Positions 50,685-55,834 of a stretch of DNA of 64,000 nucleotides are shown here, piece by piece. Source of the DNA: Taurinivorans muris (lineage in GTDB: Bacteria > Desulfobacterota > Desulfovibrionia > Desulfovibrionales > Desulfovibrionaceae); the NCBI RefSeq assembly GCF_025232395.1, contig NZ_CP065938.1, positions 1,612,001 to 1,676,000 of the forward strand, given 5' to 3'. The notes under the pieces were generated by a model. It had not been told where the DNA came from, made no database searches, and saw nothing but the letters and a program-made list of their open reading frames with translations. Within the stretch, counting starts at the first letter, position 1. Each line of letters begins with the position of its first letter. The translations under genes and the position numbers were made by a program.

Positions 50685-52883
50685 TTAGAGGGTATTGAGA
50701 AAATCGGCTTGTTTGGAAAGAGTTTCCGGAATATGTTTTTGCCAGAAATTCCAGTTATGTATGCCGTCCGCTTCAATGTATTCCATGCTGAAGCCCCGTT
50801 TTTGAAATGATTTTTGGGCGCTGCGGTTTTCTTCCAGCACAAGTTTGTCCTTGTTTCCCGTAACGACGATGATTTGCCGTGGCGAGGTGGCGGGCCATTT
50901 TTTATTGATAAGCTCCAGTACAGAATTGTCGTCCCAAATTTTTTGGTTCTCCGGTGTGAGTTCGCCCAAGAGGTTTTTTATTTTCCAATTGTTTTTATGC
51001 ATGCGGATATCAAGCACGCCGCTTATGCTTGCCATGGACTGGAAAAGGTTTTTGTTGCGGAAACCGAGGAGCAGTGCGCCGTGCCCTCCCATACTCAATC
51101 CTGTGATCGCCCGTTTTTTTGTTGTGGGATAAAGACTGTCGATATGGGGAACAAGTTCTTTCGTGATAAAGCCCGCAATCTGATTTTCGGAAACTATCGG
51201 GCTGTCCACATACCAGCCGTAAGGCTCGCAGCTGGGGGCGACGATAATCGTTTGTTTGCTGTTTGCAAGCTCCTGCAATTCTTTTCCCAGCATTTCGACA
51301 TATTCTTTTCCGGAATTGGTTGCGCCGTGCAAAAGATAAAGCACGGGATAACGCTTGCCGCCCTGCTGTTCCGCAATGAGTTTCGGAACATCGGGATATT
51401 TGTTCCGCCCCTTTTTCTTTTCGTTATCGGCGGTCTGATTGTTCGGAGGTTCCGGAAGCATTGTCTGGGTTTCCGGCAGCCATATGTAATATTCCGCTTG
51501 TTTTTGGCGCAAGCCGGATGTGAATGTCACGCGGTTCGCCATGCCTGCTACGGGCGGATAGCAGAAAGGCGTTTCTTCCGCGTAAAGTTCCGCAAGTTCG
51601 GCATCCACATAGGGCAAAACGTAATCGGTCAGAATTTCTCCGCCCTCTGTGCTGACATGGATTAAATCCTGTGAGCGCAACCGTATGCTTTGATTGTTTT
51701 TTCCCTTGTAAAAGGTCGTATATTTTCCGTTTTCCGTGAGCAAGTGCTCAATATTGACAAATTGCGCGAGGGGAACGTCTTTGCTCGCTTCTTCCTGCAA
51801 TTTGGAAATACGTTTTGTGCGCGTGAAATACGGTTCTTTGCCCATGACAGGCAGACTGACCCAAAGAATGCGCCTTTTGCCGTTATCCGCCAAGGCGATG
51901 AAATCTTTGGAGCGCTGTAAATAAATTTCCTCCCATGGTTTTGTGTCGATAAAATATCGTTTCCTGTCGATGACAATATCCTGCGTATCGTTTGCGCCAA
52001 GGCTTATGACGAGCAAATCGGGCTGATAGGCTTCAAGCATGGGGGGGAGGCTGTCAAACCAGTTGAAAAAGTCCGGACGGCTCAGCCCGGAAGAATATTT
52101 TCCTTCGCGGTGCACGGTTAAATTATCCCGCTTGCGCAGGCGGGCGTGCAGGGTTGGTCCCAAGCCTTCCATCATCATGGAATCGCCGACCAAAAGCACA
52201 TTCTTTTTTTTGCCGTAATCGGGGATATGCGCGGCATAGCCTGCGATACCGCTTTTTGTTTCGGGGATTCGCACCAGTTCGGCATTGAAAGGATAATTAT
52301 AAATATTGTACCGGTATTTTTCCTGGTCCGTATTTTGGATAGTTTCTTTTTGGGGGACCGGGCTTATCGGTTCTTGGAATGAGGCGCTGTTTTGCGTATC
52401 GGCTTGCTGATCTATTGGCAAATCGGCTGTCAGATCGGATTGCGTATCTTCGCTTGTTCGCATAACGGATTGTGCGGGATTTTCCGCATTGGCGGTACTG
52501 TCAGTAAGCGGGGGTTCGCTGTCCGTATTTTTGGCGGGCAGTTTTTCCGTTTGTTTTGCGGAGGGAGCTGGAGCCGGCAAGGTTTGGCTTGAAAGCATGG
52601 TTTGCCACCGGGCTTTTAGTGTCGGAGTGACATTCTGCATGTCACGGAAAAGGCTGTGCTTGGCTATATAATCAAATTCGTCATGCAGTCTTGCGCTTAA
52701 ATCATAAATTTTTGTTTTTATGCCGATTTCATGCAGGCAGCGGTTGACGGTCAGCAAAACAGGATACTCGGCTCCCGTTCTTTCAAGCACGGGGCTGAGT
52801 CTTTGCCCCTCGAACAGAAGCATGAGGAAGAATATAATCATGTATGACAAAAGGCTTTTTCTTGCTATCTTAGAAAATTTCAT
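50685..52883 (-). CDS. Fused SGNH (DUF459-type) hydrolase and esterase D-like alpha/beta hydrolase
   Basis: The 732-residue product has an N-terminal membrane anchor (about 11-25), a Ser/Thr/Pro/Gln-rich linker (about 95-185), an SGNH domain with VGDSMMMEG (Ser235), LGANDTQ (about 296) and DLIHVS (Asp406, His409), then an alpha/beta hydrolase from about 500 with VLYLLHGATNSGKEY, the nucleophile elbow GLSMGGHG (Ser597) and a late His in GIHNWNFW. Both catalytic sets look intact. It is probably periplasmic. The MBOAT acyltransferase gene lies 8 bases upstream, so it likely moves or removes acyl groups on an envelope polymer. Substrate unknown. Confidence 0.82.
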   Translation of the reverse strand: MKFSKIARKSLLSYMIIFFLMLLFEGQRLSPVLERTGAEYPVLLTVNRCLHEIGIKTKIYDLSARLHDEFDYIAKHSLFRDMQNVTPTLKARWQTMLSSQTLPAPAPSAKQTEKLPAKNTDSEPPLTDSTANAENPAQSVMRTSEDTQSDLTADLPIDQQADTQNSASFQEPISPVPQKETIQNTDQEKYRYNIYNYPFNAELVRIPETKSGIAGYAAHIPDYGKKKNVLLVGDSMMMEGLGPTLHARLRKRDNLTVHREGKYSSGLSRPDFFNWFDSLPPMLEAYQPDLLVISLGANDTQDIVIDRKRYFIDTKPWEEIYLQRSKDFIALADNGKRRILWVSLPVMGKEPYFTRTKRISKLQEEASKDVPLAQFVNIEHLLTENGKYTTFYKGKNNQSIRLRSQDLIHVSTEGGEILTDYVLPYVDAELAELYAEETPFCYPPVAGMANRVTFTSGLRQKQAEYYIWLPETQTMLPEPPNNQTADNEKKKGRNKYPDVPKLIAEQQGGKRYPVLYLLHGATNSGKEYVEMLGKELQELANSKQTIIVAPSCEPYGWYVDSPIVSENQIAGFITKELVPHIDSLYPTTKKRAITGLSMGGHGALLLGFRNKNLFQSMASISGVLDIRMHKNNWKIKNLLGELTPENQKIWDDNSVLELINKKWPATSPRQIIVVTGNKDKLVLEENRSAQKSFQKRGFSMEYIEADGIHNWNFWQKHIPETLSKQADFLNTL

Positions 52884-52891
52884 ATTCCGCT

Positions 52892-54373
52892 CTAAAATTG
52901 AAAATAAATAAAGGGTAAAACGCCGTCAGGACCTAATTTTAAAATGATCGCGCAAATCAAGGCGATAAGCGCTGCCTTGAAAGGAAAGCACAGCTTTTCA
53001 AGTATAAAGGCGAAGCCGCTGAAACAATGTTTGCCGATGACCTGCATAAGCATTGTCAATAAAACCGCTATGGGAACAAGCAGAGGGTAGCCGTCGCCCT
53101 CTTCGGTGAAAGCGAGGATTTTCGTTATCATGGCAAACGCCGTCTGCGTATTGCCGGCACGGAAAAAAAGCCATAAAACGCAAACGGCGTGAAAAGTGAG
53201 AAACCATGAGAAAAAGGCATATGTTTTTGCAAAAAAGCCATTTTTAAGCATTGCCTTGCAAGGATTGTACCTTGTCCATGCATGATTGAAAACAAGTCCC
53301 AATCCATGCGCCATTCCCCAGATGAGGAAGCGCAGATGCGAACCGTGCCAAAGCCCCCCAAGAGTCATGGTAATAAACAGGTTTATGTATTTATTGCCTT
53401 TTCTGTTTCCTCCGAGGCTGAAATACACATAATCGCGCAGCCATGCTGAAAGACTGATATGCCACCGGTGCCAAAATTCTTTAAGGCTTGTGGCAAGATA
53501 GGGAGCATTGAAGTTTTGCGGAATTTTAAAGCCGATGAGCCGTCCGATACCGATGGCTATATCCGTATAGCCCGAAAAATCGCAGAAAATCTGCATCGCA
53601 TAGGCATACATGGCGACAAGCACGGTTTCGGAGCTGTAAAATTCCGGGCTTTGAAAAACATCGCGCACGATGTGTTCGGACAAATAGCTCGCCAGCACAA
53701 CTTTTTTGAACAGACCGCTTAAAATGTAACTGAATCCCTCGGCAATATCCCGATTGATAAGTTTTTTTTCGAGTTGTTCGTATTCCTCGTCACTCCCTGC
53801 CGGACTGTCTTCCATAAGCTGCGGAAAAAACTGGCTGCTCCGCATAATGGGACCTGAAAGGACAACGGGAAAAAAGGAAACAAAAAGAAGCACATCAAGA
53901 AAAGTCATGGGTTTCAGGGCGGTATCCCTGTATCTGTCAATGGCATAGGACATGCCCTGGAAAATATAAAAGCTCAGCCCCACGGGCAGCAATATGTCCA
54001 TGTCGGGCAAAAGAAAAATCAGGCTTATCTGCAATCCCGCGGAATTGATCAGCTGTTCCGCGCTTAAAATTAAAAATTCATAATATTTGAAAAAGCCTAA
54101 AATCAGTATTTGCAGAAGAACGGCAATACCGATGACGCCGCGGCGGAAGGCGTGTTTTTTGAGAGGGTGGGAATTGGTCAGGACAGCGGAATAATAATTG
54201 ATGAACGCGACAATGAGGAGCAAGGGCAGAAATTGCACGCCGGCAAAAGAATAAAAAGCGATATTGATACCCAACAGAAGCGTTTTATGGGTTTTGAGGG
54301 TATTGATACGCAAACTGAGCAGTATCAGTACGAATAAGAAGAAAATCGCAAATTGGAACGTTACAAAATTCAT
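52892..54373 (-). CDS. MBOAT-family O-acyltransferase (AlgI/DltB-like)
   Basis: The 493-residue product has many membrane helices and the MBOAT core: TSLKEFWHRWHISLSAWLRDY, YVYFSLGGNRKG and GGLWHGSHLRFLIWGMAHG with the conserved His. Such proteins take an acyl group, usually acetyl, from the cytoplasm and pass it across the membrane to a periplasmic partner. The partner is likely the double hydrolase encoded 8 bases downstream, as in AlgI with AlgX/AlgJ or DltB with DltD. ATG 54373 has AAGGCAG upstream; the 18 open codons before are not family-like. The polymer acylated is unknown. Confidence 0.9.
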   Translation of the reverse strand: MNFVTFQFAIFFLFVLILLSLRINTLKTHKTLLLGINIAFYSFAGVQFLPLLLIVAFINYYSAVLTNSHPLKKHAFRRGVIGIAVLLQILILGFFKYYEFLILSAEQLINSAGLQISLIFLLPDMDILLPVGLSFYIFQGMSYAIDRYRDTALKPMTFLDVLLFVSFFPVVLSGPIMRSSQFFPQLMEDSPAGSDEEYEQLEKKLINRDIAEGFSYILSGLFKKVVLASYLSEHIVRDVFQSPEFYSSETVLVAMYAYAMQIFCDFSGYTDIAIGIGRLIGFKIPQNFNAPYLATSLKEFWHRWHISLSAWLRDYVYFSLGGNRKGNKYINLFITMTLGGLWHGSHLRFLIWGMAHGLGLVFNHAWTRYNPCKAMLKNGFFAKTYAFFSWFLTFHAVCVLWLFFRAGNTQTAFAMITKILAFTEEGDGYPLLVPIAVLLTMLMQVIGKHCFSGFAFILEKLCFPFKAALIALICAIILKLGPDGVLPFIYFQF

Positions 54374-54440
54374 GGTCTGCCTTGTTAAATTTTTTTCTTT
54401 TGTAGGGTACTTTGCATGGAAAGGCAAGCAAAATGAGGCG

Positions 54441-54876
54441 TTATTCCCTTATGGGCAAACAGCGCAAAATAACCGCCACGAAACAAAGAAAAATGCTCAT
54501 GGCGATAAAAACGAACGGTAAGCCGAGAGTATGGGCGATAAAACCCATAATGGCGAGACCTGCCAGCAAAGAAAAAGCAAGCGATATAATAGGTGCGGCA
54601 GCCGAATTTATTTGTGAGCGCACCGGCGACGGGCATGGAAACCGTTGCCCCGAAGCCGAGGCAAAGGAGCAGGAGTCCGAGCTCCGCTTCGTTGACTTGC
54701 AGGCGTTCCATGGCGAAAGGAATAAGACTTGCCCGCACCGCCATCGCAACTCCGAGGCTGAGATAGGCGAAACGCCCCGCCATAATGCTTTTCGGCACGG
54801 ATTTTAATGCGAAACATTCCGCGTTGTCTTGCGGTTCAGCATGATTTTCCGCGGAAGTTTCCTTATCGGTATCCAT
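54441..54876 (-). pseudogene. Truncated and frameshifted MFS transporter
   Basis: From ATG 54876 the frame encodes the first helices of an MFS transporter (SIMAGRFAYLSLGVAMAVRA, LGLLLLCLGFGATVSMPVAG, TNKFGCRT). At about 54589-54592 one extra base shifts the frame; the next expected helices (IISLAFSLLAGLAIMGFIAH, FVFIAMSIFLCFVAVIL) continue in the neighbouring frame and stop at 54441. Only about 145 of about 400 residues remain, so the rest has been lost. The start overlaps the 3' end of ddl. The MBOAT gene follows after 67 bases, which suggests a deletion joined them. Confidence 0.75.
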
Positions 54877-55783
54877 TTTTCTTCTTTTTGGCAAGTTTGA
54901 GCAGTTTTTCAATAAGTTCGCCGAAGCTGAGCCCGATTTCTTTCGCTTCTTTCGGAACAAGGCTGGCGGAAGTCATTCCGGGAAGCGTGTTCACTTCCAA
55001 AATGTAAGGAATACCTTCTTTTGTCAGAATGAAATCGGAACGGCTGTAATCGGAAAGCCCCAATGCGTTATGGGCTTTGAGCGCCATTTCCTGTATCTTC
55101 CGGGTCGCTTCCGCTCCGATGGGAGCCGGGCAGATTTCCGCCGCGCCGTCTGCGGAATACTTATTGGTGTAGTCGAAAAATTCCGCTTTTGATTCAATCA
55201 GAACGGGAGGCAGCGCTTTGCCGTCAAGCACGCCGCAGGTCACTTCCTTTCCTTCGGCAAGTTCTTCGATTAAAATTTCCAAACCGATGCCGAACATGGT
55301 TTCAAGGGCGTTTTTCAGCTCCTGCCTGTCGGTGACGCGGTATAAATGTATGCTTGAACCGCCGTTGTTGGATTTTACGAACATGGGATAGGAGAGTTTC
55401 GCTTCGATTTCTTCCAAATTTTCAGGCATGGCAGGTAAAAACATGCCTTTTACCGTGTTCAGCCCGTGGGCTTGGAATAAACTTTTGGCGGCGTATTTGT
55501 GCAAAGCCAGAAAAGAGCCTTCGGCATTTGAACCTTGATACGGGCAATTCAGGCGGGATAGAAGCGCTTGCACGAGTCCGTCTTCTCCGGGAGAACCGTG
55601 TAGATTGATAAAGGCGACTTCCGCTTTTTCCGCAAGGGGGATAAGGGCTTCAAATCCGTCTGAAAGGTTGAAAAACGTTACGGTGTGCCCGCGTTCCGAT
55701 AAGACTTTTTCAATGCCTTTCGCCCCGAGCAGGGAAATTTCACGTTCCGGTGACCAACCGCCTGCGATAAGCAATACATCCAT
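54863..55783 (-). CDS. ddl: D-alanine--D-alanine ligase
   Basis: Ddl makes the D-Ala-D-Ala dipeptide of peptidoglycan in the cytoplasm. The 306-residue product has AGGWSPEREISL, INLHGSPGEDGLVQALL, the ATP-grasp KSNNGGSSIHLYRV, the C-terminal YSRSDFILTKEGIPYILEVNTLPGMT with metal ligands. ATG 55783 has AAGGAG 7 bases upstream; the frame is open to 55834 but has no ribosome site there. An HD-domain gene lies upstream, and a broken MFS gene overlaps the 3' end by 14 bases. Confidence 0.95.
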   Translation of the reverse strand: MDVLLIAGGWSPEREISLLGAKGIEKVLSERGHTVTFFNLSDGFEALIPLAEKAEVAFINLHGSPGEDGLVQALLSRLNCPYQGSNAEGSFLALHKYAAKSLFQAHGLNTVKGMFLPAMPENLEEIEAKLSYPMFVKSNNGGSSIHLYRVTDRQELKNALETMFGIGLEILIEELAEGKEVTCGVLDGKALPPVLIESKAEFFDYTNKYSADGAAEICPAPIGAEATRKIQEMALKAHNALGLSDYSRSDFILTKEGIPYILEVNTLPGMTSASLVPKEAKEIGLSFGELIEKLLKLAKKKKNGYR

Positions 55784-55834
55784 TTTCTTCTCCTTATGTT
55801 CAGCGTTCCGTGCCGCCGTATTGTCCTGTTTCAT

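Follow-up and report, generated by a model that had tools for sequence, protein, structure and literature searches.

A PatA-like MBOAT gene and a PatB-type SGNH-alpha/beta-hydrolase fusion in Taurinivorans muris: a possible envelope O-acetyl writer-eraser

The gene pair and its products

An MBOAT acyltransferase gene and a gene encoding a two-domain fusion protein lie next to each other within the window, the stretch of 64,000 nucleotides of T. muris contig NZ_CP065938.1 that was analysed (Table 1). The first-pass annotation had placed the MBOAT 8 bases before a membrane-anchored protein fusing an SGNH domain to an esterase D-like hydrolase, and this layout was borne out by the gene coordinates, the Pfam matches, the membrane helix and a superposition on esterase D. 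The corresponding gap in relatives is 8-18 bases. The order of D-Ala-D-Ala ligase (ddl), MFS, MBOAT and fusion genes is common to two further species of the genus (L021, L022), three species in total, while no ddl match was found within the flanking stretches examined at the Bilophila/Lawsonia-type fusion loci. The part of the neighbourhood that was identified comprises ddl, MFS, GNAT, a ParA-like ATPase, an M17 peptidase and a pseudouridine synthase. Two more MBOATs are encoded in the T. muris genome, each with other partners.

Table 1. Features of the T. muris locus, in positions of the window
Feature	Position	Strand	Details
D-Ala-D-Ala ligase gene (ddl)	54863..55834	(-)	upstream, strand common with the pair
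MBOAT acyltransferase (PatA/AlgI/DltB-like)	52892..54373	(-)	493 aa; ATG 54373, stop codon 52892-52894; PF03062
Putative MBOAT catalytic His, GLWHG	53345..53347	(-)	residue 343; role from PMC12148441
C-terminal acyl-shuttle hexapeptide FIYFQF (FXYXXF)	52895..52912	(-)	motif Tyr function in PatA from PMC12148441
Intergenic gap	52884..52891	(-)	8 bases, MBOAT stop to fusion start
Fusion protein: anchor, linker, DUF459 SGNH domain, PF00756 esterase domain	50685..52883	(-)	732 aa; single open frame, ATG at 52883, stop at 50685
N-terminal membrane helix	52812..52868	(-)	residues 6-24 (hydropathy); 8-37 helical in model
Disordered polar linker	52212..52589	(-)	residues ~99-224 (~125 residues); pLDDT mostly <50
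DUF459/PatB-type SGNH domain	51612..52202	(-)	Pfam residues 228-424; PF04311
Alpha/beta-hydrolase (PF00756) domain	50718..51365	(-)	Pfam residues 507-722; model domain ~448-732

The MBOAT matched PF03062 in a profile search (98.7 bits, cut-off 27), and the DltB chains 8jem/6bug were the sole solved sequences matched, with the DltB equivalog TIGR04091 scoring 194.4 bits, below its 375-bit cut-off. Together with the PF03062 match, the WHG histidine and the C-terminal FXYXXF complete the features of a PatA-like MBOAT. The WHG motif was present in all 35 MBOATs listed (positions unaligned), and four Adiutricaceae-type MBOATs carry a C-terminal FIYFQY in place of FXYXXF. In PatA the tyrosine of this motif is described as being acetylated and PatB as using the acetylated motif, giving a route from PatA-Tyr to PatB-Ser to peptidoglycan (PMC12148441).

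The long polar linker noted earlier in the fusion was confirmed as a low-confidence stretch that is poorly conserved in the genus, and further helices are modelled between the membrane helix and the linker. The SGNH domain matched DUF459/PF04311 (180.8 bits, cut-off 27.2, E 2.6e-53), characterised members of which are peptidoglycan O-acetyltransferases (PMC9487903), and its model superposed on PatB 8tlb with Z 25.3 and rmsd 2.0 over 201 residues. Against the PatB equivalog NF045704 (NCBIfam) the fusion scored 83.1 bits, far under the cut-off of 580, and it is therefore not classed as PatB itself. The catalytic residues are S235, D406 and H409, with N298 in the oxyanion hole and S264 in block II. 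By hand mapping onto PatB numbers from PMC12148441, S264 aligns at the position of CjPatB Asn165 and NgPatB Ser161, and Y352 and I408 align at the wall residues Leu254 and Val309; a non-glycine block II residue and a hydrophobic wall, as in PatB structures, are thus both found. The block II serine is not general, position 264 being alanine in 15, serine in 11 and glycine in 5 of 31 fusions. Modelled strands 303-305/308-310 and 391-393/399-401, ungapped relative to CjPatB, occupy the positions of the two wing-like beta-hairpins of PatB.

The second domain matched PF00756 (90.2 bits, cut-off 22, E 2.4e-25) and carries the triad S597, D679 and H709, so the two complete catalytic triads described earlier are present in one polypeptide. 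Its top superposition, with other esterases tying within Z 1, was on 4b6g, an esterase D (Z 31.9, rmsd 2.2 over 247 residues), and the domain scored 54.8 bits against the S-formylglutathione hydrolase/esterase D equivalog TIGR02821, under the cut-off of 281.7. Antigen 85 and the corynebacterial mycoloyltransferases were also among the structural matches at Z 26-28; since PF00756 includes such acyltransferases, the second domain need not hydrolyse. Both domains could in that case be transferases, the SGNH domain acetylating one acceptor and the PF00756 domain acylating a second acceptor or trading groups, as the shared tether would allow. The fold match fits a hydrolase or a transferase, but the best matches by Z were hydrolases (esterase D and S-formylglutathione hydrolase, with feruloyl esterases lower) and the closest solved sequence relatives were EstA esterases, which makes a pair of transferases quite unlikely.

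The good match to the gut feruloyl esterase BT_4077 (Z 29.4) would suit a passenger esterase, carried on a PatB-type tether and acting on imported or dietary esters rather than on an acetylated polymer. This is scarcely probable, as 8 genomes searched each had the fused domain as their sole PF00756 match, and Candidatus Adiutrix intracellularis (L123, 2.1-Mb genome) has the fusion too. A search of the T. muris genome with PF13472 (GDSL_2) found no separate Ape1-like SGNH esterase beside the pair, and the sole match besides the fusion (C1:1883539-1884060, ~220 kb off) is a protein of 192 aa in which no signal peptide is apparent. The fused esterase is consequently the sole candidate for a periplasmic eraser within these two families.

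Distribution and neighbourhoods of the fusion

The fusion was present in 6/6 genomes of the genus, with 56-62% identity to four other species (56% for one that is partial and split over two contigs) and 99% identity to the copy in a conspecific MAG. An assembly or frame artefact was ruled out by single-frame fusions in other species and in the same-species MAG, and chance was excluded because orthologues exist in the genus. The fusion was also found in two Bilophila/Lawsonia-type genomes, one of which (G068) is probably Lawsonia, and in many termite-gut Adiutricaceae-type genomes. The DUF459 and PF00756 domain pair, which might have been limited to a single assembly, occurred at 34/42 loci in a pattern scan of public genomes that is biased to the SGNH subtype of the T. 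muris fusion and that alone sampled other phyla, Verrucomicrobiota and plasmids apart. The sole locus of another phylum in that scan, from Akkermansia (L150), carries a pair of DUF459 genes but lacks an esterase. No fusion outside the phylum was among the matches listed for 288 Verrucomicrobiota genomes, with no more than three candidates scored in each genome, and the best listed places in 72,556 plasmid records covered at most one third of the query.

Whether an MBOAT always neighbours this domain pair had been raised as a check, and the answer differed between groups. Among Desulfovibrionaceae fusion loci that have the two genes on a single contig, the MBOAT adjoins the fusion at 7/7; among Adiutricaceae-type fusion loci it does so at 0/28, within flanks that extend no more than 6 kb to each side and are often shorter. 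Adjacency as a rule was therefore rejected for the Adiutricaceae-type loci. An MBOAT is encoded elsewhere in 13/15 Adiutricaceae-type genomes checked; a single contig of Smac51 (G690) carries the fusion DUF459 at C1:2693350-2693949 and, ~0.66 Mb away, the MBOAT at C1:2029652-2031103.

The earlier statement that known MBOAT partners have a single SGNH-type domain proved incomplete. Two or three DUF459 genes occur in relatives, as do single chains with two or three DUF459 domains, DUF459 with LysM, and DUF459 with a separate GDSL gene. In genus g20 the GDSL gene lies between DUF459 and MBOAT at 4/4 examined loci having both (L056, L057, L059, L100), Lipase_GDSL_2 being confirmed for two of them, and in another genus (L026) a DUF459 protein with six LysM repeats is encoded beside the MBOAT.

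Conservation and history of the fused domains

Catalytic residues, which might have been missing in an alignment, were nearly always intact across 31 aligned fusions including that of T. muris. The SGNH Ser, Asp and His were conserved in 31/31 and N298 in 30/31, while the esterase Ser was conserved in 30/31 and the Asp and His in 31/31 each. The esterase Ser is replaced by Gly in L094/L128, and the His by Gln in L054, a fusion outside the 31 aligned and probably that of Lawsonia. Fusions that have lost the esterase Ser or His still keep the SGNH triad.

Six pairs were compared for dN, and in all five between-species pairs it rose from the SGNH domain through the esterase to the N-terminus plus linker; in the same-species pair the two domains were about equal, with few changes. 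For G002/G001, besides which synonymous sites are saturated in most pairs, dN/dS was ~0.07 for the SGNH domain, ~0.20 for the esterase and ~0.46 for the N-terminus plus linker.

All 34 fused esterases fell on one side of a branch from 23 stand-alone ones (support 97/95), and the split held against 31 once the set was enlarged by 8 Verrucomicrobiota relatives (98/94). Independent fusion in each lineage is thus not favoured for the esterase half. In the SGNH tree the Desulfovibrionaceae fusion domains grouped with stand-alone domains from the same family (100/98) and were separated from every Adiutricaceae-type domain. From these sequence trees, the history may have been an ancestral fusion followed by losses, or a transfer of the esterase domain. 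A single clade of fused esterases, one chain for both activities and low-confidence linkers that in the model could let both domains reach one site would also fit a proofreading or discharge role, in which the esterase clears the MBOAT Tyr or the SGNH Ser of acyl groups that are wrong or idle and leaves the polymer alone. We consider this very unlikely, no precedent having been met in the parts of the literature surveyed.

A possible writer-eraser and its known counterparts

Peptidoglycan O-acetylation governs lysozyme resistance and autolysis, and in Gram-negative bacteria the writer and the eraser are described as separate enzymes (PMC12148441, PMC5077204). The published eraser Ape1 of Neisseria and Campylobacter, a separate SGNH enzyme, removes O-acetyl groups and lets lytic transglycosylases act. 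It is about an even call that the T. muris pair forms a PatA/PatB-type envelope O-acetylation machine with a second hydrolase built into the PatB-like protein. The transferase half of this reading is well supported, and we infer that the target is peptidoglycan, that the group is acetyl and that the second domain erases. The fused esterase being the sole periplasmic eraser candidate within its two families, and the separate GDSL gene found in g20, also speak for the reading. The MBOAT would pass acetyl from cytosolic acetyl-CoA to the Tyr of FIYFQF, and the DUF459 domain would take it onto S235 and transfer it to a glycan of the wall, the likeliest acceptor being the C6 hydroxyl of MurNAc in peptidoglycan. 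Sharing the tether, the alpha/beta-hydrolase domain would then remove O-acetyl groups again, which is the job of Ape1, and lytic transglycosylases could act.

The link to peptidoglycan is drawn from the LysM repeats of the L026 protein and from ddl upstream of the pair in three species. Another envelope polymer, LPS or an exopolysaccharide trimmed by the esterase, is an unlikely target, even though MBOAT-SGNH pairs are described as acetylating alginate, cellulose and secondary wall polysaccharides (PMC12148441) and T. muris holds the two further MBOATs; the characterised activity of DUF459 members and the LysM relative speak against it, and the close neighbours so far identified, a part of the total, include no polysaccharide genes.

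A more specific reading, to which we give somewhat less than an even chance, is a single-chain writer-eraser of peptidoglycan O-acetyl groups, in which a PatB-type transferase and a non-homologous alpha/beta-hydrolase de-O-acetylase on one tether jointly set local acetylation. Its esterase half would have arisen once and been retained by gut bacteria and termite symbionts, while in a relative that is probably obligately intracellular the eraser would be in decay. With the transferase-type and esterase domains joined in one anchored protein, and the fusion recurring in bacteria of termite guts, a single chain could do both the tagging and its reversal. Points counted against the O-acetylation machine with a built-in hydrolase are the FIYFQY ending of four Adiutricaceae-type MBOATs, the unlinked MBOAT in genomes of that type, the NF045704 miss, the variable block II, the acyltransferases within PF00756, the esterase Ser/His losses, the occurrence of the LysM protein in another genus and the stretches around the Bilophila/Lawsonia-type loci, in which no ddl match was found.

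If the writer-eraser reading is true, both activities would be exerted near the membrane on the same strands, S235 and S597 would be single-residue handles to switch writing and erasing independently, and the second domain would be a candidate de-O-acetylase from a superfamily other than that of Ape1. It would also matter for how gut sulfonate respirers, Lawsonia-type bacteria and termite symbionts maintain their walls; no O-acetylation work on these groups was found in the parts of the open-access literature searched. Titles and the first parts of abstracts in that search held no description of a DUF459-PF00756 fusion.

The closest counterpart is the PatA/PatB/Ape1 system of Neisseria and Campylobacter, which shares the MBOAT with a C-terminal FXYXXF, the anchored DUF459 protein with a disordered linker and the adjoining genes. 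The T. muris pair differs in that no Ape1-like gene lies beside it and that the DUF459 protein continues at its C-terminus into an alpha/beta hydrolase from a different superfamily, and in Adiutricaceae-type genomes the MBOAT is not beside the fusion. DltB/DltD of teichoic acid D-alanylation likewise combine an MBOAT, an SGNH partner and a Tyr shuttle motif, but in T. muris the motif sits on the MBOAT itself and the DltB equivalog cut-off was missed. OatA, an AT3-SGNH fusion, offers a fused architecture for wall O-acetylation; it joins exporter and transferase (PMC12148441), whereas T. muris joins a transferase-type domain and an esterase and keeps the exporter separate. The PF00756 esterases (esterase D/S-formylglutathione hydrolase, EstA and feruloyl esterases) share the fold, the Ser-Asp-His triad and the GLSMGG motif with the second domain, which unlike them is anchored in the membrane by way of a PatB-type protein.

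The MBOAT gene and its fusion partner

The adjoining MBOAT acyltransferase gene and the gene for a membrane-anchored fusion of DUF459 SGNH and esterase domains form a genuine, recurrent architecture and a new variation of the MBOAT-SGNH O-acylation machine. The window spans positions 1612001-1676000 of a single 2,172,708-base contig, and its features and those of related loci are listed in the table.

Coordinates of the gene pair, its neighbours and related loci
Feature	Location	Strand	Remarks
MBOAT gene, 493 aa	window 54373-52892	minus	PF03062 (Pfam)
Fusion, 732 residues	window 52883-50685	minus	starts 8 bases after the MBOAT gene
DUF459 (PF04311) domain of the fusion	residues 228-424		E 2.6e-53 (Pfam)
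Esterase (PF00756) domain of the fusion	residues 507-722		E 2.4e-25 (Pfam)
MFS gene between ddl and MBOAT	window 54385-54960	minus	short remnant, 191 aa; PF07690 matched only in part
MFS protein of a congeneric species, 421 aa	L022:4544-5806		same place as the window remnant
Second MBOAT of this genome, with the next gene	L101:6045-8770; G000:C1 about 1051044-1053769		MBOAT ends FIYFQF
Third MBOAT of this genome, with the next gene	L102:6333-8831		followed by an AlgX-family protein (PF16822)
Open frame 3' of the fusion in G004, 850 aa	L023:1489-4041		starts MQTKN
Open frame 3' of the fusion in G004, 973 aa	L023:8658-11579		starts MQTKN
Probable Lawsonia orthologue of the fusion (G068)	L054:6668-8638		esterase catalytic His to Gln; SGNH triad intact
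DUF459 protein with six LysM repeats (G029)	L026:8866-11319		adjoining MBOAT
Multi-DUF459 chains of termite-gut-type relatives	L137:5389-8457; L139:2-2674; L151:3-3578; L152:6250-8702		two DUF459 and esterase, or two to three DUF459 without detected esterase

The window MBOAT terminates in FIYFQF. The final motif begins FIYF in 33 of 35 MBOAT rows, several of which are two copies of one locus, the others being FIYATF and LMYGNF (L110), and four Adiutricaceae-type rows end FIYFQY. PMC12148441 shows that PatA acetylates the tyrosine of this C-terminal motif and that PatB acetylates a glycan from the acetylated motif peptide. The fusion model (mean pLDDT 77.2, pTM 0.50) was confident for the N-terminal helices (about 11-70), the SGNH domain and the esterase domain, with a disordered linker. 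The SGNH part matched PatB (8tlb) with Z 25.3 and rmsd 2.0 over 201 residues, while esterase D and S-formylglutathione hydrolases tied at Z about 31-32 for the hydrolase part, whose matches also included feruloyl esterases and antigen 85. The first-pass annotation had proposed that the fusion could add and remove acyl groups or trade them between acceptors, and the transferase half of this reading very probably holds.

The protein encoded after the second MBOAT of this genome is 370 aa long, matched nothing in Pfam at E 0.01 and is possibly an undescribed MBOAT partner.

Distribution and origin

The same fusion protein, at 99% identity, was found in the MAG UBA8003, which a passage in PMC10507020 identifies as T. 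muris with a 2.2-Mbp genome. Fusion matches were present in all six genomes of the genus, on one contig in five and split over two contigs in G003, where the fusion starts 9 bases after the MBOAT at a contig end. Outside the genus, among 288 genomes of the family, the fusion occurred in two genomes of g7, a Bilophila/Lawsonia-type genus, namely Candidatus Bilophila faecipullorum (G067, locus L117) and G068, which we take to be probably Lawsonia intracellularis; the g7 genomes G010 and G069 gave no DUF459 match. At least six further fusions, all in the distant family f87, were identified in 395 genomes drawn from the phylum, scoring being limited to two candidates for each genome. Scanning a named genome collection yielded 42 loci, 34 with both domains in one frame, including L146, which is cut at a contig end; the remaining eight include L144 and L153, whose sequence ends inside the SGNH domain. 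The records of the distant loci bear the names Candidatus Adiutrix, Smac51 or unnamed Deltaproteobacteria. The Adiutrix loci are members of Adiutricaceae, and the remainder are called Adiutricaceae-type because their esterases share a clade (100/99).

In all seven Desulfovibrionaceae fusions for which a single contig carries both genes, an MBOAT was directly upstream, separated by 8, 8, 8, 8, 12, 18 and 8 bases. None was detected near the fusion at 28 Adiutricaceae-type loci, in flanks of up to 6 kb a side and often less. A match somewhere in the genome was found in 13 of 15 distinct Adiutricaceae-type genomes checked (5/6 in one set and 10/11 in another, one match of the latter being partial at a contig end; two genomes, recognised by identical match positions, are common to both sets). 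Judged by eye, the fusion neighbours were presumably ribosome-recycling-factor-type or ABC-exporter genes at four of six such loci (L093-L095 and L097) and polyketide-synthase-like genes at the other two (L096 and L098).

The 34 fused esterases formed one clade in two trees (support 97/95 and 98/94); in the second tree the nearest group, joined weakly (74/47), comprises esterases from Bacteroidota, from Verrucomicrobiota and from a Burkholderia plasmid. The SGNH-domain tree tracks host families, unlike the esterase tree, and the anchors of the fusions and several stand-alone proteins align, loosely for some. Together these sequence comparisons point to a probable single gain of the esterase by a PatB-type protein, followed by losses or a transfer.

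Catalytic residues and constraint

Thirty-one fusions were aligned, the window protein and 30 loci of the named-collection scan; outside this set were L112, which is from the same species, L137 and L139, which have two DUF459 domains, the cut L146, and L054, which came from a separate search. The SGNH serine, aspartate and histidine were each present in 31/31 and the block III asparagine in 30/31, while the esterase triad was retained at 30/31 for serine and 31/31 for both aspartate and histidine. In L094, the same locus as L128, glycine replaces the esterase serine. In all five between-species pairs dN was lowest in the SGNH domain, higher in the esterase and highest in the N-terminus and linker; in the same-species pair, with few changes, the two domains were about equal.

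Polymer and candidate eraser

The third component at related loci varies and in the window is the fused PF00756 domain. A second or third DUF459 gene takes this place at L027, L028, L062 and Akkermansia L150, the DUF459 protein with six LysM repeats does so at L026, and a separate GDSL gene sits between DUF459 and MBOAT at L056, L057, L059 and L100. LysM binds peptidoglycan-type glycans, and the LysM-bearing relative, though from another genus, therefore supports peptidoglycan as the polymer of the family. Peptidoglycan is a fairly likely target here.

The only PF00756 match in this genome is the fused domain, and GDSL_2 gave one other match, a protein of 192 aa in which no signal peptide was seen by eye. 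Within these two families the fused hydrolase is therefore the best candidate for the role played by Ape1, the separate SGNH de-O-acetylase of the PatA/PatB systems of Neisseria and Campylobacter, with an even chance that the second domain performs such erasure.
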